Origin: an uncultured Propionivibrio sp.
Lineage (GTDB): Bacteria > Pseudomonadota > Gammaproteobacteria > Burkholderiales > Rhodocyclaceae
DNA length: 64,000 nucleotides
Assembly: GCF_963666255.1 (NCBI RefSeq)
Contig: NZ_OY762657.1
Location: 186,001 to 250,000 of the forward strand
Direction: 5' to 3'
Position 1 is the first letter of the stretch. Each line of letters begins with the position of its first letter. The notes below the pieces were generated by a model. That model made no database searches. It was not told the DNA's origin and saw only the letters and a list, made by a program, of their open reading frames with translations. Below are positions 7,139 to 23,201 of this stretch, in pieces. The translations under genes and the position numbers were made by a program.

Positions 7139-7666
7139 TTAGGTTGCATCCATCGCGGCCGGGCTCTTTTTTTCACCCTGATGCAGGCGATAGATCGTGA
7201 TCGCGCTCATCACCGCAATGACACTTTCCATGACCGTGCCGCTGATCGACCCGGTCAGGAGGTTATTGATCAGCCAGAACAGCGTACAGACGAACATTGC
7301 ATAGCGGAGACGCAGGCCGTTCAGGCGAAACATCGAGACCGTGGCGATCGCCGTCGCCGCCAGGGGGATGACGTTCCAGGCTGCCTTGACGAGCCAGAAC
7401 CCGAGCATCACGTTGGCGGCCACCAGGATGAGCGCCGCCCACATCGAGCGCGTGCGCAAGGACACCAGGTTGCGCAGGGCCGACAGCAGGGTTCCCGCCA
7501 TGCCGGCGGGATTACCCATCAGGAACAGATGGGTCGCATAACAGAGGTTCTGAAGCGTCAGCCACAGCTTGAATTGCTTGTCGTGCTTGCGGGAGAAAGT
7601 CACCATGCTCAGCATCAGCGTGGCATGGCCAAACATCTGAGCGGTCGAGAAAAAATCGTGCGTCAT
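7139..7666 (-). CDS. YgjV-family inner membrane protein
   Basis: The protein has about 175 residues and five or six predicted membrane helices. Its pattern matches the YgjV/Imp family: an early helix with MVTFSRKHDKQFKLWL, then LFLMGNPAGMAGTLLSALRN, LRTRSMW and a late helix LFWLINNLLTGSISGTVME. No biochemical function is established for the family. The ATG at 7666 (MTHDFFS) was preferred because upstream in-frame residues are Arg-rich and not membrane-like. It is divergent from the lipoprotein/sigma-factor operon. Confidence 0.8.
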   Translation of the reverse strand: MTHDFFSTAQMFGHATLMLSMVTFSRKHDKQFKLWLTLQNLCYATHLFLMGNPAGMAGTLLSALRNLVSLRTRSMWAALILVAANVMLGFWLVKAAWNVIPLAATAIATVSMFRLNGLRLRYAMFVCTLFWLINNLLTGSISGTVMESVIAVMSAITIYRLHQGEKKSPAAMDAT

Positions 7667-7951
7667 CGATCGTCGGCTGGGGCGCCGGGGTTCCTGAAGA
7701 AACCGATAGCATAACCCCGGATGCAGCGCCCGGCGACCCGCGCGCATTCCAGCGCTCATTCCACCAATCTCTCCCGTCCCCGATCGCGACCGACTCGCCC
7801 CCGATTGTCCCGGCTTTCGTTCGCCGATTCGCGTGGCAACGGCAACTCTGCGGCCAAAAGAAATGTCGAAGGAACGGGAATATTCCGACCCGTGGGCACG
7901 TTAACGGTCATGAAGACGCAGACCCCGCAACCCCACCCAGGAGGAAACGAC

Positions 7952-9690: not shown

Positions 9691-10755
9691 TTACGCAATC
9701 GTACTGACGGTACTTCCCGTGGCAGCCGCTTCCAGCACCGCATCGACGACACGCAGATTCTGCAGGCCGTCGCGCGCACTGACCAGCGGCTCGCACTCCC
9801 CGCGGATGACCGCGGCAAAGTGTTCGATCTGCTCCGCCAGCGGATCCTTGCGCTGAACGTCCAGCGCACCGCACTCGAATGGCTTGTACCATGAGCGGTC
9901 TTCCGCCCTGGAATAGTATTTGAGGCGCATCGTCGGGATGGAGATGGAACCGAAGGCGCCGACGACCGTGTAGCAGTCTTCGTCGGGATAGGTCGGATAA
10001 TCCTTGTTTTCCTGCGAGGTCTGCTCCCAGCTCCTGGCACATCCGGCCGTATCGGACAGCAGAAACGACCCCAGCGCGCCATTCTCGAATTTCAGATTGA
10101 TGGCAACGGTATCTTCAACCTTGAAGCCGCGCGTCGCATTCGAGCTGAATGCCTGGACGGCGACGATTTCCCCGACCAGTGCGCGCAGATTGCCGATCTC
10201 GTGAATGAGATTGAGCAGGATCGGTCCGCCGCCTGGCTCGCGGCGCCATGCGTTGGGACCGTCGTAATAGCCCTCGCTGTCGGGCTTGTAGAAGACCGCG
10301 CTGCCCATGACACCGACAATCCGGCCGAGGAGTCCCGACTGGATGACCTTGGTCGCGTGCTGCAGGATCGGGCTGTGGAGCCGGTGATGGCCCACCAGGA
10401 TCTTGACCCCGGCCGCCTCGGCGGCCTCGCAAAGCCGAATTCCGGCCGACAGCGTATGCGCAATGGGTTTTTCCACCAGCGTCGGGATGCCGGCCCTGAC
10501 GCATTCCATCGCCTGATCGGCATGGAGCTGGTTCGGTGTCGCCAGGATGATGCCGTCGGGCCGGTCAGCCGCCAGCATCGCGGCGATCGACGCATGGATG
10601 CTGACGCCCGAACCCCGCACGATGTCCGCAAACCTGGCCGGCGGAGAAGGATCGACGATCGACGCCAGCCGACAGGTCTTGCTCCTGTTGATTTCCTCGA
10701 TATGACGATGGCCAATGAGCCCGGCCCCGGCGACGGCGATTCTGACTGTGTTCAC
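9691..10755 (-). CDS. Gfo/Idh/MocA-family oxidoreductase
   Basis: The 354-residue protein has an N-terminal Rossmann fold (RIAVAGAGLIGHRHIEEI), the family motif LVEKPIAHT near residue 95 with its catalytic-type Lys, and a GGGPILLNLIHEIGNLR segment where His usually contacts substrate. The family oxidises or reduces sugars, inositols or related polyols with NAD(P). It is the last gene of the TRAP/isomerase transcription unit, separated from the binding-protein gene by a stem-loop. It probably handles the imported compound or an intermediate. The precise substrate is unknown. Confidence 0.88.
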   Translation of the reverse strand: MNTVRIAVAGAGLIGHRHIEEINRSKTCRLASIVDPSPPARFADIVRGSGVSIHASIAAMLAADRPDGIILATPNQLHADQAMECVRAGIPTLVEKPIAHTLSAGIRLCEAAEAAGVKILVGHHRLHSPILQHATKVIQSGLLGRIVGVMGSAVFYKPDSEGYYDGPNAWRREPGGGPILLNLIHEIGNLRALVGEIVAVQAFSSNATRGFKVEDTVAINLKFENGALGSFLLSDTAGCARSWEQTSQENKDYPTYPDEDCYTVVGAFGSISIPTMRLKYYSRAEDRSWYKPFECGALDVQRKDPLAEQIEHFAAVIRGECEPLVSARDGLQNLRVVDAVLEAAATGSTVSTIA

Positions 10756-10900: not shown

Positions 10901-11911
10901 CTACTTCTTTCGTCCCTTCTCCAGCTCGGACTGCAGTTGCTGAACCAGTTCCGGCCCGACGTTGGCGGCGAACTTGTCAATGACCGGCTTGATCTTGGCG
11001 CGGATCTTGGCGGTTTCTTCCGGCGGCAGCACGCTGACCTGCATGCTCTTCTTGAGGTTGGTCAGCGACTGGTCCGCCAGCGTGCGGGCGTTTTCGCGCT
11101 GCCACTTGGTCGCTTCCTGCATCGCGGCCATCAGGACGTCCTGCTCGTCCTTGGTCAGGGCGTCCCATTTCTTCTTGCTCGCCAGCACCGACTGCGGATT
11201 GTAGATGTGGTTGCTGACCGTCAGGAATTTCTGCACTTCGTTGAATTTGCTGGTTTCGATCACCGAGAACGGATTCTCGTGTCCGTCGATGATCTTCTGT
11301 TCCATGGCGGTATACACTTCCGTGATCGGCATCGGGATCGCGTTGGCGCCAAGGGCGTTGAAGGTTTCGATGTAGATCGGCGACTGGATCACGCGGATCT
11401 TCAGTCCCGCGATGTCGTCGGCCTTGGCGATCGGACGCTTGCTGTTGGTCAGGTTGCGGAAACCAAGCTCCCAGTAGGCGAGGTTAACCAGATTTTTCGC
11501 CGGCAGCAGGTCTGCCAGTTTCTTGCCGAATGCGCCGTCAAGAATCGGATCGGCTTCCTTGCCGTTCTCGAACATGAACGGGAAGTCGAAGATTGCGAAT
11601 TCCTTCACCTGCGATTGCAGGATGCCGGAATTCATCGAGGTGAAATCGATCGTTCCGCCCTGGACCGCCGACAGCACCTGCACGTCGCCGCCGAGCAAGC
11701 CGTTCGGGAAAACCTTGATCGTCATCTTGCCGCCGCTCTTTTGCTTCACCAGCTCGGCCCACTTTTCCGCGCCCATGACAGACGGGTGGCCCGGCGCGCC
11801 GGCAATCGAAATCCTGAAGGTGTGCTCGTTGACCTGTGCCTGCACGGTCGAGAAGAGACCGAGGGCGCAGAGAGCGATTGCCGTCTTGCCAAGCAAATTG
11901 CCAATTCTCAT
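10901..11911 (-). CDS. TRAP transporter solute-binding protein (DctP family)
   Basis: The 336-residue periplasmic protein has a signal peptide (ALCALGLFSTVQAQ) and the DctP fold. The conserved segment GLKIRVIQSP carries the Arg that binds a substrate carboxylate in this family, and MEQKIIDGHENP is another family block. It should deliver a carboxylated compound, such as a sugar acid or hydroxy acid, to the membrane subunits encoded just upstream. A ribosome binding site (AGGAGGAAGTG) precedes the ATG. It lies 72 bp after the DctM gene and 145 bp before the Gfo/Idh gene. Confidence 0.92.
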   Translation of the reverse strand: MRIGNLLGKTAIALCALGLFSTVQAQVNEHTFRISIAGAPGHPSVMGAEKWAELVKQKSGGKMTIKVFPNGLLGGDVQVLSAVQGGTIDFTSMNSGILQSQVKEFAIFDFPFMFENGKEADPILDGAFGKKLADLLPAKNLVNLAYWELGFRNLTNSKRPIAKADDIAGLKIRVIQSPIYIETFNALGANAIPMPITEVYTAMEQKIIDGHENPFSVIETSKFNEVQKFLTVSNHIYNPQSVLASKKKWDALTKDEQDVLMAAMQEATKWQRENARTLADQSLTNLKKSMQVSVLPPEETAKIRAKIKPVIDKFAANVGPELVQQLQSELEKGRKK

Positions 11912-11983: not shown

Positions 11984-13264
11984 TCATCCCATCAGCATTC
12001 GCATCGGGACCAGCACCAGCTCGGGGAACACGATCAGCAGCGTCATCACCACCAGTTGCGCGACCATGAACGGCAAGACACCGACAATGACGTTGTCCAT
12101 GGTGACCCGGGTCACGCCGCAGACGACGTTGAGCGTCGTGCCGACTGGCGGTGTCACAAGACCGATCGCGTTGTTGATGATGAAGACGACGCCGAAATAG
12201 ATCGGGTCGATGCCGGCGGCAACGATGACCGGCACCAGCACCGGCGTGAGGATCAGGATGGTCGGCGTCATGTCGAGCGCCGTGCCGATGATGACGACCA
12301 GGATGTTCACCGCGATCATCAGCAGGATCTTGCTGCCCATGAACGGACGCAGGATTTCGACGACCTGCTGCGGAATCTCGGCGATGGCAATCAGCCACGC
12401 CGAGACCAGCGCGGCGGCGACCAGGAACATGACGATTGCGGCCGTCTGTCCGGCTTGCGCGAGCACCCCGTAAAGCTGCGACCACTTCAATTCCTTGTAG
12501 ATGAACATGGCCACGAACAGCGCATAGGCGGAGCACACGACGCCGGCTTCGGTCGGCGTGAAGATGCCGAATTTCAGGCCGAACACGAGGATGCCCGGCA
12601 TCACCAGCGCCCAGAGACCTTCCCGGATGGCCTTGGCGATTTCCTTGCCCGAGGCTTTCGGCGGCACCTCGAAATCGGCATTGCGGGCAATCCACCACCA
12701 GGCGATGGTGATTCCGATGGCGATCATCAATCCCGGCACGATCGCCGCCATGAACAGCTTGGTAATCGACAGCCCGCCCGTGACCCCGAACAGGATCAGG
12801 TTCGGCGAGGGCGGCACCATCGGTCCGATGATGCTGCCGGACGCGATGAGCCCGGCCGATTTCTCCGGGTTGTAGCCGGACTTGACCATCATCGGAAACA
12901 GCAACGCGGACATCGCCGCCGCATCGGCGGCGGCCGAGCCGGACAGCGACGCCAGGATGCACGACGCCAGGATGACGACATAGCCAAGCCCGCCCCGGAT
13001 GTGACCGACCAGCGTCATCGCCACGTGGATGATTCGCCGCGATAGTCCGCCGGCATTCATCGTCGTTCCGGCGAGCATGAAGAACGGGATGGCCATCAGC
13101 GGAAAGCTGTCGGCGCCGTTGATCAGGTTCTGCGCGATGATCTGGGTATCGAACATGCTCAGGTGCGCCATGAGCGCGACGCCGCACGCGATCAGGGCGA
13201 ATGCGATCGGCATCCCGAGGGCCATCGCCCCGAGCAGCGAGAAAGTGAAGATGGCTATGGTCAT
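11984..13264 (-). CDS. TRAP transporter large permease (DctM family)
   Basis: The 426-residue integral membrane protein is the DctM subunit, the Na+- or H+-coupled transport channel. Blocks such as NGADSFPLMAIPFFMLAG, GSIIGPMVPPSPNLILFG and NNAIGLVTPPVGTTLNVV are diagnostic. Around twelve hydrophobic segments are visible. Its ATG overlaps the stop of the small permease gene by four bases (ATGA), so the pair is translationally coupled. Confidence 0.94.
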   Translation of the reverse strand: MTIAIFTFSLLGAMALGMPIAFALIACGVALMAHLSMFDTQIIAQNLINGADSFPLMAIPFFMLAGTTMNAGGLSRRIIHVAMTLVGHIRGGLGYVVILASCILASLSGSAAADAAAMSALLFPMMVKSGYNPEKSAGLIASGSIIGPMVPPSPNLILFGVTGGLSITKLFMAAIVPGLMIAIGITIAWWWIARNADFEVPPKASGKEIAKAIREGLWALVMPGILVFGLKFGIFTPTEAGVVCSAYALFVAMFIYKELKWSQLYGVLAQAGQTAAIVMFLVAAALVSAWLIAIAEIPQQVVEILRPFMGSKILLMIAVNILVVIIGTALDMTPTILILTPVLVPVIVAAGIDPIYFGVVFIINNAIGLVTPPVGTTLNVVCGVTRVTMDNVIVGVLPFMVAQLVVMTLLIVFPELVLVPMRMLMG

Positions 13265-13863
13265 GGCGTCTCCCGCTTCAGGTCATGATTGGCGGCGAGC
13301 GCGTTCTTTTCGCGCTCCATTTCGCGTTGCAGCTCTTCCAGCTTGCCGTCCTCGAGATCCTCCTGCGATTCCTTGACACCGATGAGCTGGTGTTCCTGCA
13401 GTTGGCCGGTCAGCATCAGGTACAGGTCGTAGATCAGGATCAGCGCCGCCGGTACGCTGAAGAACAGGCCGACGCCGTAGTAGAAGCCGGAGGAGAGCCC
13501 GGACGCCGGCGCCTCGACGCCAAGGTTGATGACGGTCTGTTTCCAGCTGCCATCGGCGAAGAGATAGACGCAGTAAATCATGATGAGATGGCTCAGCACG
13601 AAGCAGAGCTTCTTGCCCGCCACCGGCAGACGCGAGACAACGGTGTCCATGCCAAGATGCGAGTGTTCGCGCATCGCGATGACCGCCCCGGTGAAGGTGA
13701 GCCAGACGAAGCCCCAGCGCGCGAGTTCTTCCGACACGGTGATTCCCGAGTTGAACCCGTAACGCAGGATCACGTTGCCAAGCACCAGAACGACCATCGA
13801 TCCGATGAAAAACACGACCAGAAACTTCAGTCCCCTGAAGTACAAATCGATGAGATATGCCAT
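13261..13863 (-). CDS. TRAP transporter small permease (DctQ family)
   Basis: The 200-residue protein has four membrane helices in the DctQ pattern (LVLGNVILRYGFNSGITVSEELARWGFVWL, abridged family block around residues 30-60, and LGMDTVVSRLP). A charged C-terminal tail of about 40 residues (EDLEDGKLEELQ) is longer than usual. The ATG at 13863 follows AGGAGG and begins directly with the first helix; an upstream in-frame ATG at 13950 was rejected. It is encoded between the AroE-like enzyme and DctM. Confidence 0.9.
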   Translation of the reverse strand: MAYLIDLYFRGLKFLVVFFIGSMVVLVLGNVILRYGFNSGITVSEELARWGFVWLTFTGAVIAMREHSHLGMDTVVSRLPVAGKKLCFVLSHLIMIYCVYLFADGSWKQTVINLGVEAPASGLSSGFYYGVGLFFSVPAALILIYDLYLMLTGQLQEHQLIGVKESQEDLEDGKLEELQREMEREKNALAANHDLKRETP

Positions 13864-13946
13864 ACCCCCTCCTGCTGAACAAAGTGCCGGCGACGCTGCT
13901 GTCCGGCTTCCCGTTTTTCGAGCCACGCCGTCGCCGTTCACGTCGA

Positions 13947-14783
13947 TCAATACGAAATGCGCGCCACCGACTTCAGTTCGTCGGGCGTTGCCGTGCCAAA
14001 GCCGAAGAATTCGAGATAGGCAGGAATCATCTCGAACAGCATCTCGGTCCCGAGCACGTAGCGACAGCCCTTGGCGCGGGCGATTTCCAGCAGTGGCGTG
14101 ATCTCCTTCTTCATGACCACCTCGCCGACAAAGGTCGCCGGCGAGAGATTGCTCAGGTCGAAGGGCAGCGGGTCATCGTCCTTCATGCCAAGCGGCGACC
14201 CGTTGACGATGAGGTCGTAGCCGGCAACGTCGGTGCTGAACACGACCTGCGTATCGATCTGCGGATAGTGTTCCCGCAAACGGGCTGCCAGATTGACGGC
14301 GGCATCGCTACGGGTCTTGTACACCGAGATCGCGCGAATACCCGCGGCAGCCAGCGACGCGGCGATGGCCGAGCCGACGCCGCCGGCCCCGACCAGCAAC
14401 ACCTTCGCGCCTTCGCACCGGAAGCCGTTGCGCTGGATGCCGCGGACGAACCCGGCACCGTCGAACATGTCGCCGAGCAGGGTCCCGTCGGGACGTTTGA
14501 GAATGGCGTTGCAAGCGCCGGCGATCCTGGCCGTTGTCGAGATTTCATCGACCAGGCCGACCGTGCTCACCTTGTGCGGCATGGTGATCAAGGCGCCATG
14601 CACGTTGCTCATCCTGAAGATCGATGCCAACGACGCCGGATAGTCTTTCGCCTCGACGCCCATCGGTACGACCATGGCATCAATGCCGTGTTTGTCGAAC
14701 CACGGGTTGTAGATCAACGGTGCCTTGAACGCATGGGTCGGGAAACCGATGTGGGCGATCAGGGTGGTTTTTCCGCTCAGCAT
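13947..14783 (-). CDS. AroE-like dehydrogenase with altered substrate pocket
   Basis: The 278-residue protein has the shikimate dehydrogenase fold: catalytic Lys in ITMPHKVSTVG, the Asp-containing FDGAGFVRGI block and a Rossmann motif LLVGAGGVGSAIA. In E. coli AroE the substrate carboxylate is held by two serines in HSKSP. The aligned stretch here reads AFKAP, so both serines are gone. It is therefore unlikely to be the biosynthetic AroE and probably oxidises or reduces a different compound taken up by the adjoining TRAP system. GGAGAG precedes the ATG, 11 bp after the isomerase gene. Confidence 0.85.
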   Translation of the reverse strand: MLSGKTTLIAHIGFPTHAFKAPLIYNPWFDKHGIDAMVVPMGVEAKDYPASLASIFRMSNVHGALITMPHKVSTVGLVDEISTTARIAGACNAILKRPDGTLLGDMFDGAGFVRGIQRNGFRCEGAKVLLVGAGGVGSAIAASLAAAGIRAISVYKTRSDAAVNLAARLREHYPQIDTQVVFSTDVAGYDLIVNGSPLGMKDDDPLPFDLSNLSPATFVGEVVMKKEITPLLEIARAKGCRYVLGTEMLFEMIPAYLEFFGFGTATPDELKSVARISY

Positions 14784-14794
14784 TACGACTCTCC

Positions 14795-15643
14795 TCAGGC
14801 GGCGCCATGACGCTTGGATTGCGGCGACGAGGGAAGATGCTCCCTGACGTATTTCTTCGCCGATTCGAGACAGCGGAACGCATGTTCGGCAAAGCCGAAT
14901 TCCTGGGCGCGGGCAAGATGCGGCAATTCGATCGAAATGATCGATGACGGGATGCGCCTGAGAATATCCGCGATGTCGATGCCGCCTTCGCCGACATAGA
15001 GGCGCTCACCGCGCATGATGCGGATGAATTCGTCGCGATCGGTGGGAATCTCTGCCTGGGCGTCGCACAGATGGGCGAAGTGGAACCATTCGCGCGGCAA
15101 ACGATCGAGATCCTCCGGATTGTCATGGGAGCGATGGAAGTGGTGCATGTCGATCATCAATCCCGCATTCGACCGATTCACATCGCGCAACATCTTGGCC
15201 GCGCCGGCGAGATTGTTGATGCCGGCAATCGGAACGAACTCCAGGTCAACCGTAAAGCCGAAGGGCTTCGCCAGATCGCAGACCTCCGCGAATTTCTCCG
15301 TGGCGTAATCGAGATTCGTCGTCCACACGCTCGACAGCACCGCCTTGGCACCAAGTTCGGCCGCGACTTCCATGGCCGGCAGGTACTTCGTCGGATGCAT
15401 GTCGTCATAGATGCGGGCCAGTTCGATGTCATGGACCCTGATGCCGGTCGATGCCATCGCACGCTTCGTCTGGCGCAACATCTCGGGGTTATCCGCCAGT
15501 GCGTAATTGGGTTCCCCCGGCAATCCCATATAGATGAGGCGGGGACTGAAGAAGTCGTAGCCGGCACGGGCGGCAACATAGGCCAGCTCCGGCGGCGGAC
15601 AGCCAAGCGCCGTCAGGTGCGCCAGTGAATACTGATAAGCCAT
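14795..15643 (-). CDS. Sugar phosphate isomerase/epimerase-like TIM barrel (AP_endonuc_2 family)
   Basis: The 282-residue protein shows the xylose-isomerase-like TIM barrel seen in epimerases, inosose dehydratases and 3-dehydroshikimate dehydratases. Likely metal ligands are Glu in TVDLEFVP, Asp/His in GLMIDMHHFHRS, His/Asp in FAHLCDAQ and a late Glu in ISIELPH. It is the first gene of the second transcription unit of the catabolic cluster, with AGGAGG before its ATG and a LysR-type element about 210 bp upstream. Whether it isomerises, epimerises or dehydrates its substrate cannot be decided here. Confidence 0.83.
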   Translation of the reverse strand: MAYQYSLAHLTALGCPPPELAYVAARAGYDFFSPRLIYMGLPGEPNYALADNPEMLRQTKRAMASTGIRVHDIELARIYDDMHPTKYLPAMEVAAELGAKAVLSSVWTTNLDYATEKFAEVCDLAKPFGFTVDLEFVPIAGINNLAGAAKMLRDVNRSNAGLMIDMHHFHRSHDNPEDLDRLPREWFHFAHLCDAQAEIPTDRDEFIRIMRGERLYVGEGGIDIADILRRIPSSIISIELPHLARAQEFGFAEHAFRCLESAKKYVREHLPSSPQSKRHGAA

Positions 15644-16262
15644 ATTTCCTCCTGGAGAATACGTCGTTGGATACCGGTCATCGGAACACGGCGGCCCACG
15701 GTGGCGGATCGGATCGCATCGCCGATCGACGATGCGGATTCACGATCGATCACGTTCGCCAATGGCATTTGATGTCATCGCGAGGACAGCTGACAGTTAC
15801 CGGACCTGACCCTTGAAATTGGTGTATGGGGATACTAGAAGAGCCAAAAATAAAAATGAAATACTCATTTTCTATCCGCTTATAGACGCATTCTATGAGT
15901 CGCAATCATCAATTTTTATGCGCAAAAACATGGCCTTGCATCGCCTGTCAAGGCAACCGCAGAGGGCATGCGTTTGTGTAAATGCACCGGCTGGCGGCAT
16001 CGCCCTGATGCGCACGACGGAGCCGCCGAAACTATGCCATCGTCCTTATATCCGGCATCGCGACGTATCAGCGCGCAGGCGACTTGCCGCTACCGGAATG
16101 GCCCATCGTCGGGCACCTTTCGGCGAAACCACGGCGCTTATGCCAGCGCCTCCTGTGCCTGGCGCGCGCTTCGCGACAGATCCTCGACGACGTTGCAAGG
16201 AAGCATCCGCCCCCGGACGATTCCGACAACAAAGGAGTCTCCGGGGGTGGCGCGATGCGGCA
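15644..16262. other. Long leader/promoter region of isomerase-TRAP unit
   Basis: These 619 bases separate the TPP enzyme from the isomerase gene. They hold the first copy of the 43-bp element (15854-15896), and at 15909-15923 a further 15-base identity to the second copy's neighbourhood (20662-20676). The remaining sequence has no supportable gene; frames crossing it are extensions of antisense frames. The length is unusual for a within-operon gap and argues for an independent promoter here. Confidence 0.7.
15854..15896 (-). promoter_or_regulatory. 43-bp LysR-type operator element, copy 1
   Basis: The stretch contains AAATGAAATACTCA, then a dyad TAT-CCGCTT-ATA abutting ATAGA-CGCAT-TCTAT (15882-15896), a T-N11-A motif of LysR-type activators. 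It matches copy 2 at 20651-20693 in 36 of 43 positions with no gap. It lies about 210 bp upstream of the isomerase start. Regulator identity is inferred from the two neighbouring LysR genes. Confidence 0.72.
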
Positions 16263-18026
16263 TCAGTCGGTGCTGACGTGGTGCACCGTCTTGCCCGGCG
16301 AGAAGACCGTCATGATGTCCCAGTGGCCTTCGGTCGGCGTCGGGATATTCACCATGCGTACGTCGAGCACGACCGGCTTGTTCGCCTTGATCGCCTTCTC
16401 CAGTTCGGGCTTGAAGTCTTCGGCGCGCTCGATGCTGATGCCATCGATCCCGTAATTCCGCGCGATGCCGGCGTAATCGGGCGCGTATTCCTCGCCATTG
16501 CGGGTGAACAGGGTCCCGAAGGTGGTGTCGTAGTGCGCCTTGATGAGGCCGGCGATCGTACCGAAGGCGTTGTTGTTCATGATGACGACGACAACCGGAA
16601 CGTTCTCCGCAGCGATCGAGGCCAGCACCGCCGGATTCTGGCCGAAGCCGCCGTCACCGACGACGGCAATGACGGTCTTGTCCGGCGCGCCGATCTTGAC
16701 GCCCATCGCGCCCGGCACACCAAAGCCCATCGTTGCCAATCCGCCCGGGGTGATGAAGGTGTCGGCGGTATAGAACGAGAACTGCTGCCCGATACCGTTC
16801 TTGTTCCAGCCCACGTCAGTCACGATCAGCGCGTCGGCGGGCGCGGCCGCACGCAAATCGGCGAGGATACGCTGCGGGCTCATCGGGAACTGGTTGGTTT
16901 CCTCGACCGCCCGATTGGCCTCGCGGAACGCCTGCTTGGCCTGCGCGATCTCCTGCTCCGCTGCCGGGTTCCTGCGCGGCGTCGGATACAGGCGCCGGGC
17001 GACCTTGTTCAGCACCGTCAGCGCCTTCTTCAGGTCGGCAACGACGCCGATCTCGACCGGATAATTGCGACCGATTTCGGCCGGGTCGATGTCGATGTGG
17101 ATCAGCTTGGTCGGCGGGCCGGCAAAGGTAAAATCGGGGTACCAGGAACTGGAGTCGCATTCCTTGAAGCTCGTCCCCATCGCCAGGATGTAGTCGGCAC
17201 CGCGACATTTGTCGTTGATGAACTTGGTTCCCCAGAAACCGGTCATGCCCATCATCAGCGGATTGGTATCCGGCAGGGTCGCCTTGCCCATCAGCGTGCA
17301 GCTGACGGGAATGCCCATGTGATTGACGAAGGCTTCGAATTCCCTGGTTGCGCAGGCCCCCTTGACGCCGCCGCCGACGTGGATGACCGGATTCTTCGCC
17401 GCCGCGATCTCCCTGATGACGCGTTCGGCCAGTTCCTCGTCGATCGACGGCTTCTCAAGCTTGCGCGTATTGCATTTCACCCGGCTGAACAGGGATTCCT
17501 CGACATGGGCCGAGAACATGTCCATCGGCACGTCGATCAGTACCGGTCCGGGTCGCCCCGACTCGGCCATGGTGAAGGCCTTTTCGAGGATTTCCGGGAA
17601 CAGTTCGGCGCGATCGACACGCCATACGCGCTTGACGAACGGCCGGAAAATCTCGCTCTGCGCGCCGTCCGCGTGCAGATTGACCTCCTGGTGCGGATGC
17701 TTGCCAAAGTAATATGACTGGACATCGCCGGCGATGACCACCATCGGAATCGAGTCGAGCGCAGCCGTGGCGACGCCGGTCACGTTATTGGTGATGCCCG
17801 GGCCGAGCGTGCTCAGCACGACCGACGCCTTCTTCGTCACCCGTGCATAGCCGTCGGCGGCATGGGACGCGATCTGTTCGTGGCGGACATTGACGAACTT
17901 GATCCTGTCGCTCTTGGCCAGCTCCGCCAGAAAGGCGATGTTCGTGTGGCCGCACATCCCGAAAATGTACTCAATGCCACGATCCTCAAGATACTTGACG
18001 ATCTGTTCCGACATGTTCTTCTTCAT
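16263..18026 (-). CDS. Thiamine-pyrophosphate enzyme, acetolactate-synthase-like
   Basis: The 587-residue protein has the three-domain layout of the acetolactate synthase/benzoylformate decarboxylase family. It has an N-terminal domain with the activating Glu in VRHEQIASHAADGYAR, a middle nucleotide-type domain, and a C-terminal TPP site that begins GDGGFGQNPAV and ends VIMNNNAFG (GDG-to-NN motif). It should make or break C-C bonds next to a carbonyl, such as 2-oxoacid decarboxylation or carboligation. The ATG at 18026 follows CAGGAGAGATTGC. It is the last gene of the racemase-transketolase unit. The product is unlikely to be housekeeping IlvB given its context. Confidence 0.87.
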   Translation of the reverse strand: MKKNMSEQIVKYLEDRGIEYIFGMCGHTNIAFLAELAKSDRIKFVNVRHEQIASHAADGYARVTKKASVVLSTLGPGITNNVTGVATAALDSIPMVVIAGDVQSYYFGKHPHQEVNLHADGAQSEIFRPFVKRVWRVDRAELFPEILEKAFTMAESGRPGPVLIDVPMDMFSAHVEESLFSRVKCNTRKLEKPSIDEELAERVIREIAAAKNPVIHVGGGVKGACATREFEAFVNHMGIPVSCTLMGKATLPDTNPLMMGMTGFWGTKFINDKCRGADYILAMGTSFKECDSSSWYPDFTFAGPPTKLIHIDIDPAEIGRNYPVEIGVVADLKKALTVLNKVARRLYPTPRRNPAAEQEIAQAKQAFREANRAVEETNQFPMSPQRILADLRAAAPADALIVTDVGWNKNGIGQQFSFYTADTFITPGGLATMGFGVPGAMGVKIGAPDKTVIAVVGDGGFGQNPAVLASIAAENVPVVVVIMNNNAFGTIAGLIKAHYDTTFGTLFTRNGEEYAPDYAGIARNYGIDGISIERAEDFKPELEKAIKANKPVVLDVRMVNIPTPTEGHWDIMTVFSPGKTVHHVSTD

Positions 18027-18082
18027 TGCAATCTCTCCTGAATGCCAAAAATATTCCTGCTGTTCAATCTGCTGAGGCGAAC

Positions 18083-19015
18083 CTATTTCTTCTTCGCCGC
18101 CACCTGCTCGGCGGCGGCGACGATACTGGGGACATCCATGTGGTGCTTGGCGTACAAAACCTCGCTCGGCCCGGACTCGCCAAACACATCGGGTATGCCG
18201 ATGCACTTGACATGGCAAGGATGCTTCTCGGCAAGGAGCTGGGCCACCGCCGCCCCCAGCCCGCCGATCAGCGAGTGATCCTCGATCGTGACGATCGCAT
18301 TCGTGGCACGGGCGGCTTCCAGCACCGCGTCTTCGTCGAGCGGCTTCAGGGTGCTCATGTCAATGACGCGGGCCTTGATCCCACGCTCCTTGAGGACGCC
18401 GGCGGCATCGAGGGCCTTTTGCAGCATGATCCCCGAACTGATCAGGGCAACGTCATCACCGAAATTCAGCACCCGGGTGGCCTTGCCGAGCTCGAACCGG
18501 TAGGACTCGTCGTAGATGACCGGCGAGGGATTCCGATGCAGGCGGACGTAGAGCGGACCGTGGAACTTGTGGGCGGCATGGGCAATCGCCTTCGCCGCCA
18601 CGGCATCGGCCGGCTGGATGATCGTCATGTTGGGGAACGCACGCATGATCGCCACGTCTTCCACGGCCGCGTGCGTTGCGCCGTCCTCGCCAACCTGCAG
18701 GCCGGTATGCGTACCGACGACGGTCACGTTGAGATGCGGATAGCAAATGAAGTTGCGCACTTGCTCGCAGCAACGCATGGTCACGAAGACGGCGAAGGTG
18801 CAGGCGAAAACCTTGAAGTCTTCCGCCGCCAGTCCCGCAGCGACGTTGATCAGATTCTGCTCGGCAATGCCGATCGAGTATGAACGCGTCGGGAACAGGT
18901 CGCCCATCGCTTCGATGCCGCAGGCCTTCGTATCTGCGTTGCAGACCACGAAATCGTCATGCACCTTGGCAATCTCGAGCATTTCCTTGCCAAAAACAAA
19001 TCGTGTCGCTTCCAT
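18083..19015 (-). CDS. Transketolase, C-terminal subunit
   Basis: The 310-residue protein carries the pyrimidine-binding and C-terminal domains of transketolase. They include SIGIAEQNLINVAAGLA with its catalytic-type Glu, and HAAVEDVAIMRAFPNMTIIQPADA. With the adjacent N-terminal subunit it forms a split transketolase, as found in several dedicated sugar-catabolic clusters. It should transfer a two-carbon ketol unit between sugar phosphates. Its ATG overlaps the stop of the N-terminal subunit gene by one base (TAATG). Confidence 0.92.
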   Translation of the reverse strand: MEATRFVFGKEMLEIAKVHDDFVVCNADTKACGIEAMGDLFPTRSYSIGIAEQNLINVAAGLAAEDFKVFACTFAVFVTMRCCEQVRNFICYPHLNVTVVGTHTGLQVGEDGATHAAVEDVAIMRAFPNMTIIQPADAVAAKAIAHAAHKFHGPLYVRLHRNPSPVIYDESYRFELGKATRVLNFGDDVALISSGIMLQKALDAAGVLKERGIKARVIDMSTLKPLDEDAVLEAARATNAIVTIEDHSLIGGLGAAVAQLLAEKHPCHVKCIGIPDVFGESGPSEVLYAKHHMDVPSIVAAAEQVAAKKK

Positions 19016-19851
19016 TATCTTGCCGCTCCTTCGATTTCATTCAGTGCCAACCCCAGTTCCTTGTCGCTCGGTGCCGCGCCATGCCATTTGATGACGTCTT
19101 CCATGAACGAAACGCCCTTGCCCTTGACGGTAGCGGCCAGAATGGCGACCGGACCGTCAATCGATTTGGCATAGTTCAGGGTGTCGAGCACTTCCGCCAT
19201 GTCGTGGCCGTCGATCTCCAGGACCTTCCAGCCGAACGAACGCCACTTGTCGGCGAGCGGTTCGATCTTCATGACCTTGTCGGTGGTATCGAGGATTTGC
19301 AGGCGATTGACGTCGACGATGGCGACAAGATTTCCGAGCGCATGGTGCGCGCCGCACATGGCCGCTTCCCACACCGAACCCTCCTGGCATTCCCCGTCGC
19401 CAAGCAGGACGAAGATTTTGTGGCTGTCACCGCGAACCTTGGCGGCGATCGCCATGCCCACCGCGCATCCGATGCCATTGCCCAGGGAGCCGGCGCTCAT
19501 CTCCACGCCCGGGCACTTGTGCATGTCCGGATGCCCCTGTAGCTTGCTGCCGAATTTTCGCAAGGTGCCGAGATCCTCGACGTCAATGAATCCGCGCCGG
19601 GCCAGGACCGCATAGAGAACCGGACAGCAATGGCCTTTCGACAGGACGAAACGGTCCCGCCCTTTCCATTTGGGATTTTCGGGATCGAGGTTCAAGACGT
19701 TGAAATACAACGCGGTCATGATATCGGCTGCCGACAGGCTGCCGCCCGGATGACCTGATCCCGCCGCATGGACCATCTTGACGATGTCCTGGCGGATGAT
19801 GCGTGCCATCTCCTTCAGTTCTGGCACATCGAGTTTCTTGAAGTCGACCAT
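19015..19851 (-). CDS. Transketolase, N-terminal subunit
   Basis: The 278-residue protein is the thiamine-diphosphate-binding half: GSGHPGGSLSAADI near residue 32, LSKGHCCPVLYAVLA, and the TPP motif GDGECQEGSVWEAA ending in IVDVNRLQ. It pairs with the next gene. The ATG at 19851 follows a purine-rich GAAGAGAGAAG and matches the family N-terminus; the in-frame ATG at 19971 would overlap the racemase gene. Split transketolases are common in specialised carbohydrate clusters, supporting a role beside the TPP enzyme and isomerase. Confidence 0.92.
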   Translation of the reverse strand: MVDFKKLDVPELKEMARIIRQDIVKMVHAAGSGHPGGSLSAADIMTALYFNVLNLDPENPKWKGRDRFVLSKGHCCPVLYAVLARRGFIDVEDLGTLRKFGSKLQGHPDMHKCPGVEMSAGSLGNGIGCAVGMAIAAKVRGDSHKIFVLLGDGECQEGSVWEAAMCGAHHALGNLVAIVDVNRLQILDTTDKVMKIEPLADKWRSFGWKVLEIDGHDMAEVLDTLNYAKSIDGPVAILAATVKGKGVSFMEDVIKWHGAAPSDKELGLALNEIEGAAR

Positions 19852-19907
19852 CTTTCTTCTCTCTTCACAGAATTGCGTGGAATGCGGGGATACGCGCGCT
19901 TCGACGA

Positions 19908-20588
19908 TTACGCCTTGCACATGTCCTTGACGGTGTCGATCACCAGGTCCAGACCGCTGTAGAAGCTGCACAGCACTGGTGTTTTGACGTCCTTGAGGTC
20001 GGGCAGGAGCGCCCGCATGCTGACCTGAGCCATCACGATCGCATCGAAGCCGGCAGCATCGAGGCGGCGAATGCTCTCGATCAGGATGGCGTTATGACGT
20101 TTGCTGTCTCCGGCGGCGAGCGCCTCCCAGGCGGGCTGATCGAGATATTCGGTGAACCGGATGTCGCGCCCGCGCTCCTGACCATAGCGCTGGATGGCGC
20201 GACGGCTGGGGCCGAGCGTCGTCGGCAGGGTCGCGATGAGGGCGATGTTGTCGCCAAGATCCGCAGCCCGCCGGGCCATCGGGTCATCGATCTTGATCAC
20301 CGGCACGGAGACGACTTTTGCGTAGATGTCGGCGACTTCGCCCACCGTCGAGCAGGAGTTCAGAATCAGATCGGCGCCCATCGCCTCGGCCGCCATCGCG
20401 TACAATGTCATGCGCCGGATGACCGGCTGTGTCGGCTTGCCGGCCTTCCGGATTTCAGGCAGGAGGGAACTGTCGGTAATGAAGTCCACCGTGATTCCCG
20501 GCAAACGCTCCTCAAGATACGCGATCGTGTCTTCCCTTTTGGCGAAACTGGTCTGCAGGACAGTGATGCGCTTCTCGTATTTCATCAA
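19908..20588 (-). CDS. Asp/Glu/hydantoin racemase-family protein lacking the second Cys
   Basis: The 226-residue protein has the two-lobed Asp/Glu racemase fold. The first catalytic block is clear (LILNSCSTVGE), but the second lobe reads IVMAQVSMRAL where two-base racemases have a Cys. Members with one Cys are known among isomerases and lyases of this superfamily, so simple amino-acid racemisation is doubtful. It is the first gene of the racemase-transketolase-TPP unit, 62 bp downstream of the 43-bp LysR-type element. The substrate is unknown. Confidence 0.78.
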   Translation of the reverse strand: MMKYEKRITVLQTSFAKREDTIAYLEERLPGITVDFITDSSLLPEIRKAGKPTQPVIRRMTLYAMAAEAMGADLILNSCSTVGEVADIYAKVVSVPVIKIDDPMARRAADLGDNIALIATLPTTLGPSRRAIQRYGQERGRDIRFTEYLDQPAWEALAAGDSKRHNAILIESIRRLDAAGFDAIVMAQVSMRALLPDLKDVKTPVLCSFYSGLDLVIDTVKDMCKA

Positions 20589-20890
20589 TTTTCTCCGCTC
20601 TACTCATCGTCGGTCAGGTGGCGTTTTTAGAGTAAAGACATGCGGCGACAAAATGAAATACTCAATTTTTATGCGCTCATAGAGACAGTCTATAGCGCCA
20701 TAAGTCGCTTTTTTTCAATGGCTTGAGCCATTGTTACGACCACCATAGATTGCATATGGCATAGACGCGGACGTGCCGGATGACAGCCTGTGCGAGCATC
20801 GCCCGGAGGGGAAATACCGGATTTCCATCGGCTGGAGGAGATTGATACGCAGGCGCGGCGAAAACCGTCGTCGCCGACGATCTGAAACGC
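20589..20890. other. Regulatory gap between LysR regulator and racemase unit
   Basis: About 300 bases without a gene. They contain copy 2 of the 43-bp LysR-type element and should hold the promoter of the racemase-transketolase-TPP unit. The LysR gene upstream reads in the same direction and ends at 20891. Confidence 0.7.
20651..20693 (-). promoter_or_regulatory. 43-bp LysR-type operator element, copy 2
   Basis: Same architecture as copy 1 with identical spacing: AAATGAAATACTCA, dyad TATG-CGCT-CATA, then ATAGA-GACAG-TCTAT (20679-20693). The dyad arms are exact, while the 5-nt spacer differs from copy 1 at three positions, as expected for a binding site rather than a recent duplication. It lies 62 bp before the racemase-like start codon. 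Confidence 0.75.
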
Positions 20891-21811
20891 TTACGCCGGT
20901 TTTCTCAGGAAGAGTTCGCTGCAGATCCCGCGTAGCCAGCGATTGGCCGCATCGCGATGGTACCTGGCGTGCCAGTGCTGCTTCACGGTGAATTTTTCGA
21001 TCGGGAACGGGCAGTCGAAAACCTGGAGACCGTTGGCATGAGCGAGCGTTTCCCCGATATGGCGCGGCAGGGTTACCAGCAGGTCTGTACTGGAAATGAC
21101 GGCGGGAAGCCCGAGGAACCCGGGCAAATCGAGTGCGACCTCGCGGTCGATCTGCAGCTTGCTGATGGCCGCGTTCAACAGGCGATGCCCGGTTCCGGAA
21201 ACGATGCCGACATGCGCTTCCCTGAGGTAGTTCTTCATCGTCAATCGGGTCTTGATCCTCGGGTGGTCATGGCGGGCGAGGCACACCCAATCCTGTTCGA
21301 ACAGGCTCTGCTGATAGAAACCCTGACCGAGTTCCGGGATGAGGCCGATGGCGATGTCGGCTTCGCCGGATTCCAGCAGGCGCGGGACCTGCGCGTCGAT
21401 CCGGACGACCCCGAGCTGCACCTTCGGCGCGACGATCCTGACGCGCGCCAGTATCTGCGGCAACAGCGTGACGTGGCTGGCATCGCTCATGCAGATCCGG
21501 AAATGGCGCGGCTCGCGGTTCGGATCGAAGGTCGGCTCCCAGCTCGAAAAATGCCTCAAGCATTCGAGCGCTTCCCTTGCCGTGGAGATCAGTTCATCGG
21601 CAGCCGGTGTCGGCTCCATCCCGGTGGCCGTGCGAACGAACAGCGGGTCCTTGAGGTGCCGCCGCAATCGATTGAGCTGGTTGCTGACGGTCGGCTGAGC
21701 CATGCCGAGACGTTCGGCCGCACGCGTAACGCTGCGGGTTGCGTACAAGGACTCGAAGAGCTGAAGCGCCTGGCTATCCAGGAGTTCCGATGAGCGGATG
21801 GGCTTCTTCAT
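20891..21811 (-). CDS. LysR-family transcriptional regulator (NodD/NahR-like)
   Basis: The 306-residue protein has the N-terminal winged helix (LFESLYATRSVTRAAERLGMAQPTVSNQLNRLR) and a periplasmic-binding-like effector domain. Its HTH wording (LKDPLFVRTATGMEPT) resembles the NodD/NahR/PcaQ branch. The gene sits immediately upstream of the racemase-transketolase-TPP unit in the same orientation and is the best candidate to bind the two 43-bp elements. The effector is presumably the imported acid or an intermediate. Confidence 0.92.
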   Translation of the reverse strand: MKKPIRSSELLDSQALQLFESLYATRSVTRAAERLGMAQPTVSNQLNRLRRHLKDPLFVRTATGMEPTPAADELISTAREALECLRHFSSWEPTFDPNREPRHFRICMSDASHVTLLPQILARVRIVAPKVQLGVVRIDAQVPRLLESGEADIAIGLIPELGQGFYQQSLFEQDWVCLARHDHPRIKTRLTMKNYLREAHVGIVSGTGHRLLNAAISKLQIDREVALDLPGFLGLPAVISSTDLLVTLPRHIGETLAHANGLQVFDCPFPIEKFTVKQHWHARYHRDAANRWLRGICSELFLRKPA

Positions 21812-22307
21812 TATTTATTTATCGAATGATCCGTATTCAGAGTATTGCATGTACATAATTTGTTGCAAGCATTAAATTGTGCGTGAACTTGCCGCGCGAT
21901 GCCCTTACCGGCGCCGCCGAATACGGTCTTACCTCCGTGCCGACATTGCTCCGGCAGTGCCGGTGCATTATCGCCAACCATGGGAGCTGCCCTTCCCTGG
22001 TTGGCATTTTTCTATGCGCCGCCGGCGCGAAGGATATTCCTTTCCCCGGCACGCCGTCCGCGCTTATCGGCGATACGCGGCAGTGCGTCGCCGATATTCC
22101 CCATACGAATAGTTCCTATTCCACTTATACGATAGACAGGATTTTGTTCAACCACTACGTTGGAGATTTTTGGCTCGGGGCGCGCCCGCCGAACGCCGGA
22201 TGTCGATGCGGGTCGCAGGCCGGAATGCGTCACCCGATCGACGGCATCCGCCCGGACGCCGGACATGCCAGACCCAACAGCAACTGTCATTCGGAAGGAA
22301 TGCGTCG
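21812..22307. other. Divergent intergenic region between two LysR genes
   Basis: Roughly 500 bases lie between divergently transcribed regulators. The left third is AT-rich next to the first LysR start. A dyad GAATAG-TTC-CTATTC sits at 22107-22121, and ATAGACAGG just after it resembles one arm of the 43-bp elements. No gene is supported; open frames through it have no recognisable content. Confidence 0.6.
22107..22121 (+). promoter_or_regulatory. Candidate autoregulatory LysR dyad
   Basis: Perfect 6-bp inverted repeat GAATAG/CTATTC with a 3-nt spacer, about 190 bp upstream of the second LysR gene. Size and position suit an autoregulatory LysR-type site. No second copy was found. Confidence 0.4.
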
Positions 22308-23201
22308 ATGACCCTGCAACAACTCAAGTGCTTTCTGGCGATGGCGGAAGTGCTGCACTACACCAAGGCTGCCAACCAACTCTACATTTCTCAGCCCAGT
22401 CTCAGCTACGCCATTTCGGAACTCGAAAAGGAATTGGGCGTTCCCTTCTTCGAGCGGCAGGGCAACCATACCTTGATCACCAAGTACGGCGAGAGCTTCC
22501 TTCCCTATGTCAAACAGATCTTCTCGACATTGAATGAAGCCAAGGCGCATCTCTACGAAATGCTCGATGCATCGACAGGCAAGGTCAATCTCGGCTACAT
22601 CTACAGCATCAGTTTCGATTATGTTCCGAGAATGCTGGAGCTGTTCTATGCCGACCAGGGCAACAGCCAGATCACTTTCGAATTTTTCCAGGGCCTGCAC
22701 TACACGCTGATAGAAAAGCTCAAGTCGGGAAGTGTCGACCTGTTGCTGTCAGCCAATCCGGACGATCGGACCATCGAAGGGGTTCCCGTGTACAAACAGG
22801 AACTGTTCGTGATCGTTCCGGAGGGGCATCGCCTGGCCGACAAGGAGGTCGTCAGCCTCAATGACGTCAAGGGCGAACCGCTGATCAGCCTGAGCAAGAC
22901 GAGCGATATTCGCAATCATCTCGTCAAGTGCTTCGAAAAGATCGGCGCCAAACCGCTTATCGCGGGAGAGGTGGCCGAGTGCATCGGCATGTCGGCGCTG
23001 GTCCGTGCCAATCTCGGCATCGCCATCACCCCCTTGTCGCCGACCTTCGAAGGCGGAAAACTGAAGGTGCTGCGATTCCGTGAAGAGGAGCGCGAGACGA
23101 TGCATCGCGACATCCATCTCTTGTGGATGAAGGATCATCAGCTGGAACCGTCTGTCAAGCGATTCCGTGACTTCATCATCGACCAATCGAACCGGCTGTA
23201 A
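22308..23201 (+). CDS. LysR-family transcriptional regulator (CynR/GltC-like)
   Basis: The 297-residue protein starts TLQQLKCFLAMAEVLHYT, followed by the helix-turn-helix AANQLYISQPSLSYAISELEKELG and a full effector domain. The ATG at 22308 follows GGAAGGAA and matches the canonical LysR N-terminus; longer frames add unrelated residues. It is divergent from the other LysR gene and the catabolic regulon, and may control part of that regulon or itself. A hairpin straddles its stop codon (GAACCGGC/GCCGGTTC, 23189-23212) without a T tract. Confidence 0.92.
   Translation: MTLQQLKCFLAMAEVLHYTKAANQLYISQPSLSYAISELEKELGVPFFERQGNHTLITKYGESFLPYVKQIFSTLNEAKAHLYEMLDASTGKVNLGYIYSISFDYVPRMLELFYADQGNSQITFEFFQGLHYTLIEKLKSGSVDLLLSANPDDRTIEGVPVYKQELFVIVPEGHRLADKEVVSLNDVKGEPLISLSKTSDIRNHLVKCFEKIGAKPLIAGEVAECIGMSALVRANLGIAITPLSPTFEGGKLKVLRFREEERETMHRDIHLLWMKDHQLEPSVKRFRDFIIDQSNRL

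Follow-up and report, generated by a model that had tools for sequence, protein, structure and literature searches.

LysR-type transcriptional regulators (LTTRs) include OxyR, which carries a peroxide-sensing cysteine pair. LTTR target promoters have a dyad-symmetric T-N11-A recognition site close to −65 and, about two helical turns away, an activation site close to the −35 element. In the LTTR layout set out in part of PMC5002191, ATAG/CTAT-type half sites lie two helical turns apart, and the GcvA, MetR, OxyR, IlvY, CynR and LysR promoters treated there carry two 15-bp T-N11-A inverted repeats upstream, with centres about 21–22 bp apart. OxyR sites are tandem ATAG-N7-CTAT sequences separated by an interval of 7–10 bp (sections of PMC5002191 and PMC8787470); at Escherichia coli oxyS, ATAG-n7-CTAT repeats are placed at −66, −44 and −35 (same part of PMC5002191). 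BsrA of Pseudomonas aeruginosa binds T-N11-A sites, according to a portion of PMC8407307. Here we describe two copies, A and B, of a 43-bp element in a 64,000-nucleotide stretch (the window) from an uncultured Propionivibrio sp. (contig NZ_OY762657.1, positions 186,001–250,000). We propose, with a probability of roughly 0.8, that they form the upstream portions of a pair of LTTR-controlled promoters and that LysR2, a LysR-type protein encoded nearby, regulates both units behind them.

The locus is like the promoters of that set in having two upstream 15-bp T-N11-A inverted repeats with centres about 21–22 bp apart, and like OxyR sites in its ATAG/CTAT halves, whose predicted centres at about −64 and −43 compare with −66 and −44 at oxyS. 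It departs from OxyR in its interval (6 bp rather than 7–10 bp), its catabolic targets and its putative regulator, because the best solved-structure match of LysR2 by sequence is Lmo0488 (9.8e-27) and OxyR chains score lower (2.1e-21). Unlike the promoters of the set, as far as they are described in that part of PMC5002191, one element is common to two Propionivibrio target promoters, and the putative regulator gene is neither divergent from nor adjacent to its targets.

Architecture and rarity of the element

Copies A (15854–15896) and B (20651–20693) agree at 36 of 43 bases without gaps. This match and the identical block within it, AAATGAAATACTCA, had been reported in a first-pass annotation and were the same on recomputation, with the identity extending one base more, from 15853/20650. 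Both copies contain the dyads ATAGA-N5-TCTAT and TAT-N6-ATA. The seven mismatches (minus-strand element positions 6, 9, 10, 16, 21, 25 and 29) lie mainly in spacers, as had been claimed, six of them falling in spacers, the linker or a dyad centre; the exception is position 25 (G/A), the fourth base of an activation half site.

A genome-contig scan with the racemase-like protein encoded behind element B gave eight loci, four of them 79–94% identical: Propionivibrio dicarboxylicus DSM 5885 (L035), Anaerospora hongkongensis (L036), a Clostridia-labelled metagenome-assembled genome (MAG; L037) and a Negativicutes MAG (L038). The element precedes the racemase-like gene in all four. Seven sites were aligned, namely A and B in two Propionivibrio species and the sites at the three Firmicutes loci, of which L036 and L037 are nearly identical, leaving about four independent sites. 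All seven share one minus-strand layout: a dyad of the ATAGA-N5-TCTAT kind, 6 bases, ATA-N9-TAT and then a −10-like hexamer at one fixed distance. The recognition dyad is ATAGA-N5-TCTAT (T-N11-A) in the Negativicutes MAG and in all four Propionivibrio copies, and ATCGA-N5-TCTAT at two loci. In A and B the activation site reads ATAG-N7-GTAT or ATAA-N7-GTAT; Anaerospora and the Clostridia MAG have ATAG-N7-CTAT instead, and the Negativicutes MAG has ATAA-N7-TTAT. The hexamer, 20 bases past TATTTC, is TAGTAT in A, TACTCT in B and TATACT at all three Firmicutes loci. If this hexamer is the −10 element, the dyad centres would lie at about −64 and −43 from the predicted starts. Over the four non-redundant sites, half-site positions are invariant in 15 of 18 cases and the remaining element positions in 12 of 25. 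So aligned, the element reads as an LTTR promoter with a recognition site and an activation site; TAT-N6-ATA, previously listed as a dyad and indeed present in both copies, is better described as the facing halves of two neighbouring sites than as a site of its own. The parts are as follows.

15882–15896, minus strand: recognition site of copy A, ATAGA-N5-TCTAT (T-N11-A), centred at about −64 relative to the predicted start, identical in P. dicarboxylicus
15861–15875, minus strand: activation site of copy A, ATAG-N7-GTAT (ATA-N9-TAT), centred at about −43
15832–15837, minus strand: copy A −10-like hexamer, TAGTAT, 20 bases past TATTTC; predicted start near 15825
20679–20693, minus strand: copy B recognition site, ATAGA-N5-TCTAT
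20658–20672, minus strand: copy B activation site, ATAA-N7-GTAT (ATA-N9-TAT)
20629–20634, minus strand: copy B −10-like hexamer, TACTCT, 20 bases past TATTTC; predicted start near 20622

A weak third dyad, TGA-N5-TCA, was seen by eye over the −35 region of A and B; it was left aside and not used, its offset from the activation site not being one helical turn.

Elsewhere in the window, on both strands, no sequence matched either copy at more than 24 of 43 positions. Throughout the window's genome (G000; 3,993,109 bases, 4 contigs), a 33-base pattern with up to three mismatches and a looser 39-base half-site pattern with up to two each found A and B only, with no match in the reversed control. 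By a rough binomial estimate, the chance per genome of a 36/43 match to a given 43-mer is 3e-8, or 1e-6 at 70% A+T composition. An RNA element was rejected: no Rfam family reached its gathering score in 15400–22400, and no inverted repeat of at least 10 bp within 40 bases was found in 15640–16270 or 20580–20900.

Conservation of the element in two phyla

P. dicarboxylicus (G005), of the same genus as the window's genome, has both copies (A, 43/43; B, 42/43), and every Firmicutes copy agrees with A at 34 of the 43 positions and with B at 31. A thus stands closer than B to the promoters of the Firmicutes racemase genes, so it did not arise by recent copying of B. When 12 of 42 loci were scanned for the element, it was present in the five with a close racemase orthologue (L006 and L035 being the same genome), and the seven with just distant racemase relatives lacked it (best 21–24 of 43). 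Between the two Propionivibrio species, element A is 100% identical, the next 29 bases 97%, the following stretch 70% and the 100 bases upstream 60%; element B is 98% identical and its upstream sequence 69%. Relatives of the racemase-like protein were found in 25 of 148 genomes of the relatives set (E 0.001; two close), in 6 of 300 genomes of the class of Anaerospora (E 1e-40; the two close ones being Anaerospora itself and the Negativicutes MAG) and in 146 plasmid records, every one at less than 60% identity.

Two further sequences in the window resemble parts of the element.

20807–20849, minus strand: degenerate third copy with the activation-site half alone kept, fuller in P. dicarboxylicus (L035:8736-8778)
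15909–15923, minus strand: 15 bases identical to the middle of element B (20662–20676), not conserved in P. dicarboxylicus

The third element-like site of P. dicarboxylicus lies 155 bases upstream of B, with one mismatch to the relaxed pattern and TAGTCT at the −10 spacing; this element-like promoter is decayed in the window. The 15-base match, which had been taken to suggest an extra half site, is exact, but the window holds 23 directly repeated 15-mers, of which this is one, and it was not found upstream of A in P. dicarboxylicus (L035), and the extra half site was dropped.

LysR2 as the candidate regulator and its rivals

Two LysR-type genes lie beyond element B.

22308–23201, plus strand: LysR2, likeliest regulator, with HTH_1 and LysR_substrate domains; orthologues beside the operon
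20891–21811, minus strand: LysR1, candidate of the first-pass annotation; a member of the Pfam LysR family that falls short of the cut-off of its nearest NCBIfam model, BsrA

The Pfam domains of LysR2 are HTH_1 (E 9.9e-18) and LysR_substrate (E 1.4e-32). At the three Firmicutes loci, the LysR gene adjoining the operon is a LysR2 orthologue with 76–78% identity (tblastn of window proteins), and an orthologue stands beside the operon in all five loci, with LysR1 in between in Propionivibrio. In the N-terminal 50 residues of LysR2, 44 agree between the window and Anaerospora. Close LysR2 orthologues occur in 2 of 198 relatives (E 1e-60); the class of Anaerospora gave three in 300 genomes at E 1e-65, two of them close and the third (G242) 41% identical, and the class of the Clostridia MAG one in 331 at E 1e-80. 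Exact matches to the relaxed pattern were found in the same 2 of 198 and the same 2 of 300 genomes as the close orthologues; in the class of the Clostridia MAG, the pattern scan covered that genome itself (G150) only. Judged by this co-occurrence, LysR2 is the better regulator candidate for both elements. We suggest that LysR2 would act as a tetramer, with one dimer held at ATAGA-N5-TCTAT (about −64) and the other placed, with the help of a putative co-inducer, two helical turns downstream at ATA-N9-TAT (about −43). In that position it would bring RNA polymerase to a promoter whose −35 is poor and whose −10-like hexamer lies at a fixed distance.

It had been suggested that LysR1 binds the elements. 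That it binds both, alone or together with LysR2, is unlikely, even though its gene directly adjoins promoter B on the upstream side in both species of Propionivibrio and LysR1 resembles BsrA, its nearest NCBIfam model (221.6 bits, below the equivalog cut-off of 480) and a T-N11-A binder (in the portion of PMC8407307 cited above). At the locus, a LysR1 orthologue was found by tblastn in P. dicarboxylicus only and at none of the three Firmicutes loci; in whole Firmicutes genomes, the best match was 30% over part of the length (Anaerospora), and the other two gave none at E 1e-10. Conversely, LysR1 relatives with 61–67% identity occur in seven further Propionivibrio genomes that are without the element at 0 or 1 mismatch, G018 and G027 having one two-mismatch match each, not near a LysR homologue. 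The region upstream of LysR1 is kept between the two species, yet its sequence differs from the element. Because LysR1 has no orthologue in the element-bearing Firmicutes and has relatives in element-free Propionivibrio, while LysR2 tracks the element, LysR1 is not supported as the regulator; it may add control in Propionivibrio.

Upstream of LysR1 (window 21840–21870; L035 about 7645–7680) is a conserved TTGCA...TGCAA dyad, unlike the 43-bp element and possibly LysR1's own site. Upstream of LysR2 (window 22100–22155; L035 about 7320–7375), a block conserved in the two species contains ATAG-N3-CTAT and more ATAG/CTAT halves and is a possible autoregulatory site. The window's genome also has a second LysR1-like gene (G000:C1:752930-753817, 59% identical).

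Genes that move together co-occur whichever regulator acts, and the link to LysR2 could be a passenger effect of whole-cluster transfer, with the element being either a general feature of promoters or the site of a different, unlinked regulator. We consider this quite improbable: the half sites at −64 and −43, two helical turns apart, match the LTTR layout in the cited part of PMC5002191; the element occupies two genome places only; and, in 300 genomes searched with the relaxed pattern at up to one mismatch, all seven further sites have a LysR-type gene (22–30% identical to LysR2) no more than about 400 bases away, in comparison with 0 of 17 arbitrary equal-length stretches from four genomes. 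In four genomes, the sites form a near-identical family (L078–L081), ATAGGA...TCTATTAG...GATA...TATTTC beside another LysR-type gene, a separate LTTR family of like layout. Least probable is a small duplicated or mobile repeat without a regulatory role. The presence, within 5 kb, of a degenerate third copy and a 15-base fragment besides the two near copies could speak for it, but it was rejected as the genome holds just two copies, the flanks diverge while the element stays conserved, the element occupies the same place in another phylum and the Firmicutes copies match A (34) better than B (31).

Several results weigh against twin promoters under LysR2. There are about four independent sites in all, and in Propionivibrio LysR1 separates LysR2 from the operon. 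The seven further sites in the 300 genomes compare with five in the reversed control, a count not above control, and four of the seven LysR-linked sites belong to the one near-identical family, leaving four independent cases. Outside this operon, the 198 relatives gave six pattern matches (one at one mismatch, five at two), the same number as the control, and none was near a LysR homologue; these six are chance hits. The LysR2 protein searches scored just the best first-look candidates of each genome. Behind element B, the next 29 bases (the core) are less conserved between species than the following stretch (76% versus 86%). Finally, a consensus scan of 15600–16300 found no sigma-70-like promoter, a result that fits an activator-dependent promoter without demonstrating one.

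Putatively regulated genes and possible transfer between phyla

The genes behind the two elements are listed in the order of transcription; thiamine diphosphate is abbreviated ThDP and tripartite ATP-independent periplasmic TRAP.

19908–20585, minus strand: Asp/Glu-racemase-like protein, first gene behind element B
19015–19851, minus strand: transketolase, N-terminal half, unit 1
18083–19015, minus strand: transketolase, C-terminal half, unit 1
16263–18029, minus strand: acetolactate-synthase-like ThDP enzyme; no NCBIfam equivalog cut-off reached among the 25 matches listed
14795–15643, minus strand: IolI-like TIM barrel resembling xylose isomerase, first gene behind element A; best solved match IolI
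13947–14783, minus strand: shikimate/quinate-dehydrogenase-like protein, unit 2
13261–13950, minus strand: TRAP transporter DctQ, unit 2
11984–13264, minus strand: TRAP transporter DctM, unit 2
10901–11911, minus strand: TRAP transporter DctP, unit 2
9691–10755, minus strand: Gfo/Idh/MocA oxidoreductase, taken as the last gene of unit 2

Promoter B would drive unit 1, the four genes for the racemase-like protein, the split transketolase and the acetolactate-synthase-like ThDP enzyme, and promoter A unit 2, with the isomerase-like, shikimate-dehydrogenase-like, TRAP transporter and oxidoreductase genes (six if the oxidoreductase belongs). The earlier proposal that a LysR-type element heads two minus-strand units and joins about ten genes (4 + 6) in a putative single regulon is borne out by conservation between genomes and by the LTTR promoter geometry. 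In the Negativicutes MAG, racemase, both transketolase halves, an HMGL-like protein, ThDP enzyme, isomerase and aldehyde dehydrogenase follow one element on one strand; since racemase-to-isomerase genes form one run there, the two Propionivibrio units correspond to that single run. The genes look like a sugar- or acid-degrading set. Among 15 of the 17 papers naming P. dicarboxylicus, none was on this operon as judged by title.

P. dicarboxylicus has a second DctP gene (L035:13420-14436; 47% to window 10901–11911) between the ThDP-enzyme gene and element A, and none was found in the window's matching interval, 15897–16262. In Anaerospora, the ThDP-enzyme gene (L036:11619-11948) gives a 74-residue match only, followed by unrelated genes, and is truncated or lost.

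The patchy occurrence in two phyla suggests joint transfer of regulator, operon and promoter. Tentatively, and at a little under even odds, we envisage that the three moved as one working module, its promoter complete, between Firmicutes and Betaproteobacteria, that the promoter was copied when the Propionivibrio operon split, that a single local LTTR thereby remained in sole charge of both promoters of an undescribed catabolic pathway and that a second LysR gene was inserted beside it. As a switch it is of an ordinary type, but very distant bacteria have the regulator, genes and switch in common. On this evidence, the first-pass interpretation appears right in kind and wrong about the regulator. 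The analysis defines a putative regulon of about ten genes and two promoters for a catabolic pathway and names the sites and the first regulator to examine; it clearly exemplifies an LTTR promoter layout retained, along with its regulator, across two phyla, and the element is a marker by which the pathway may be located elsewhere.

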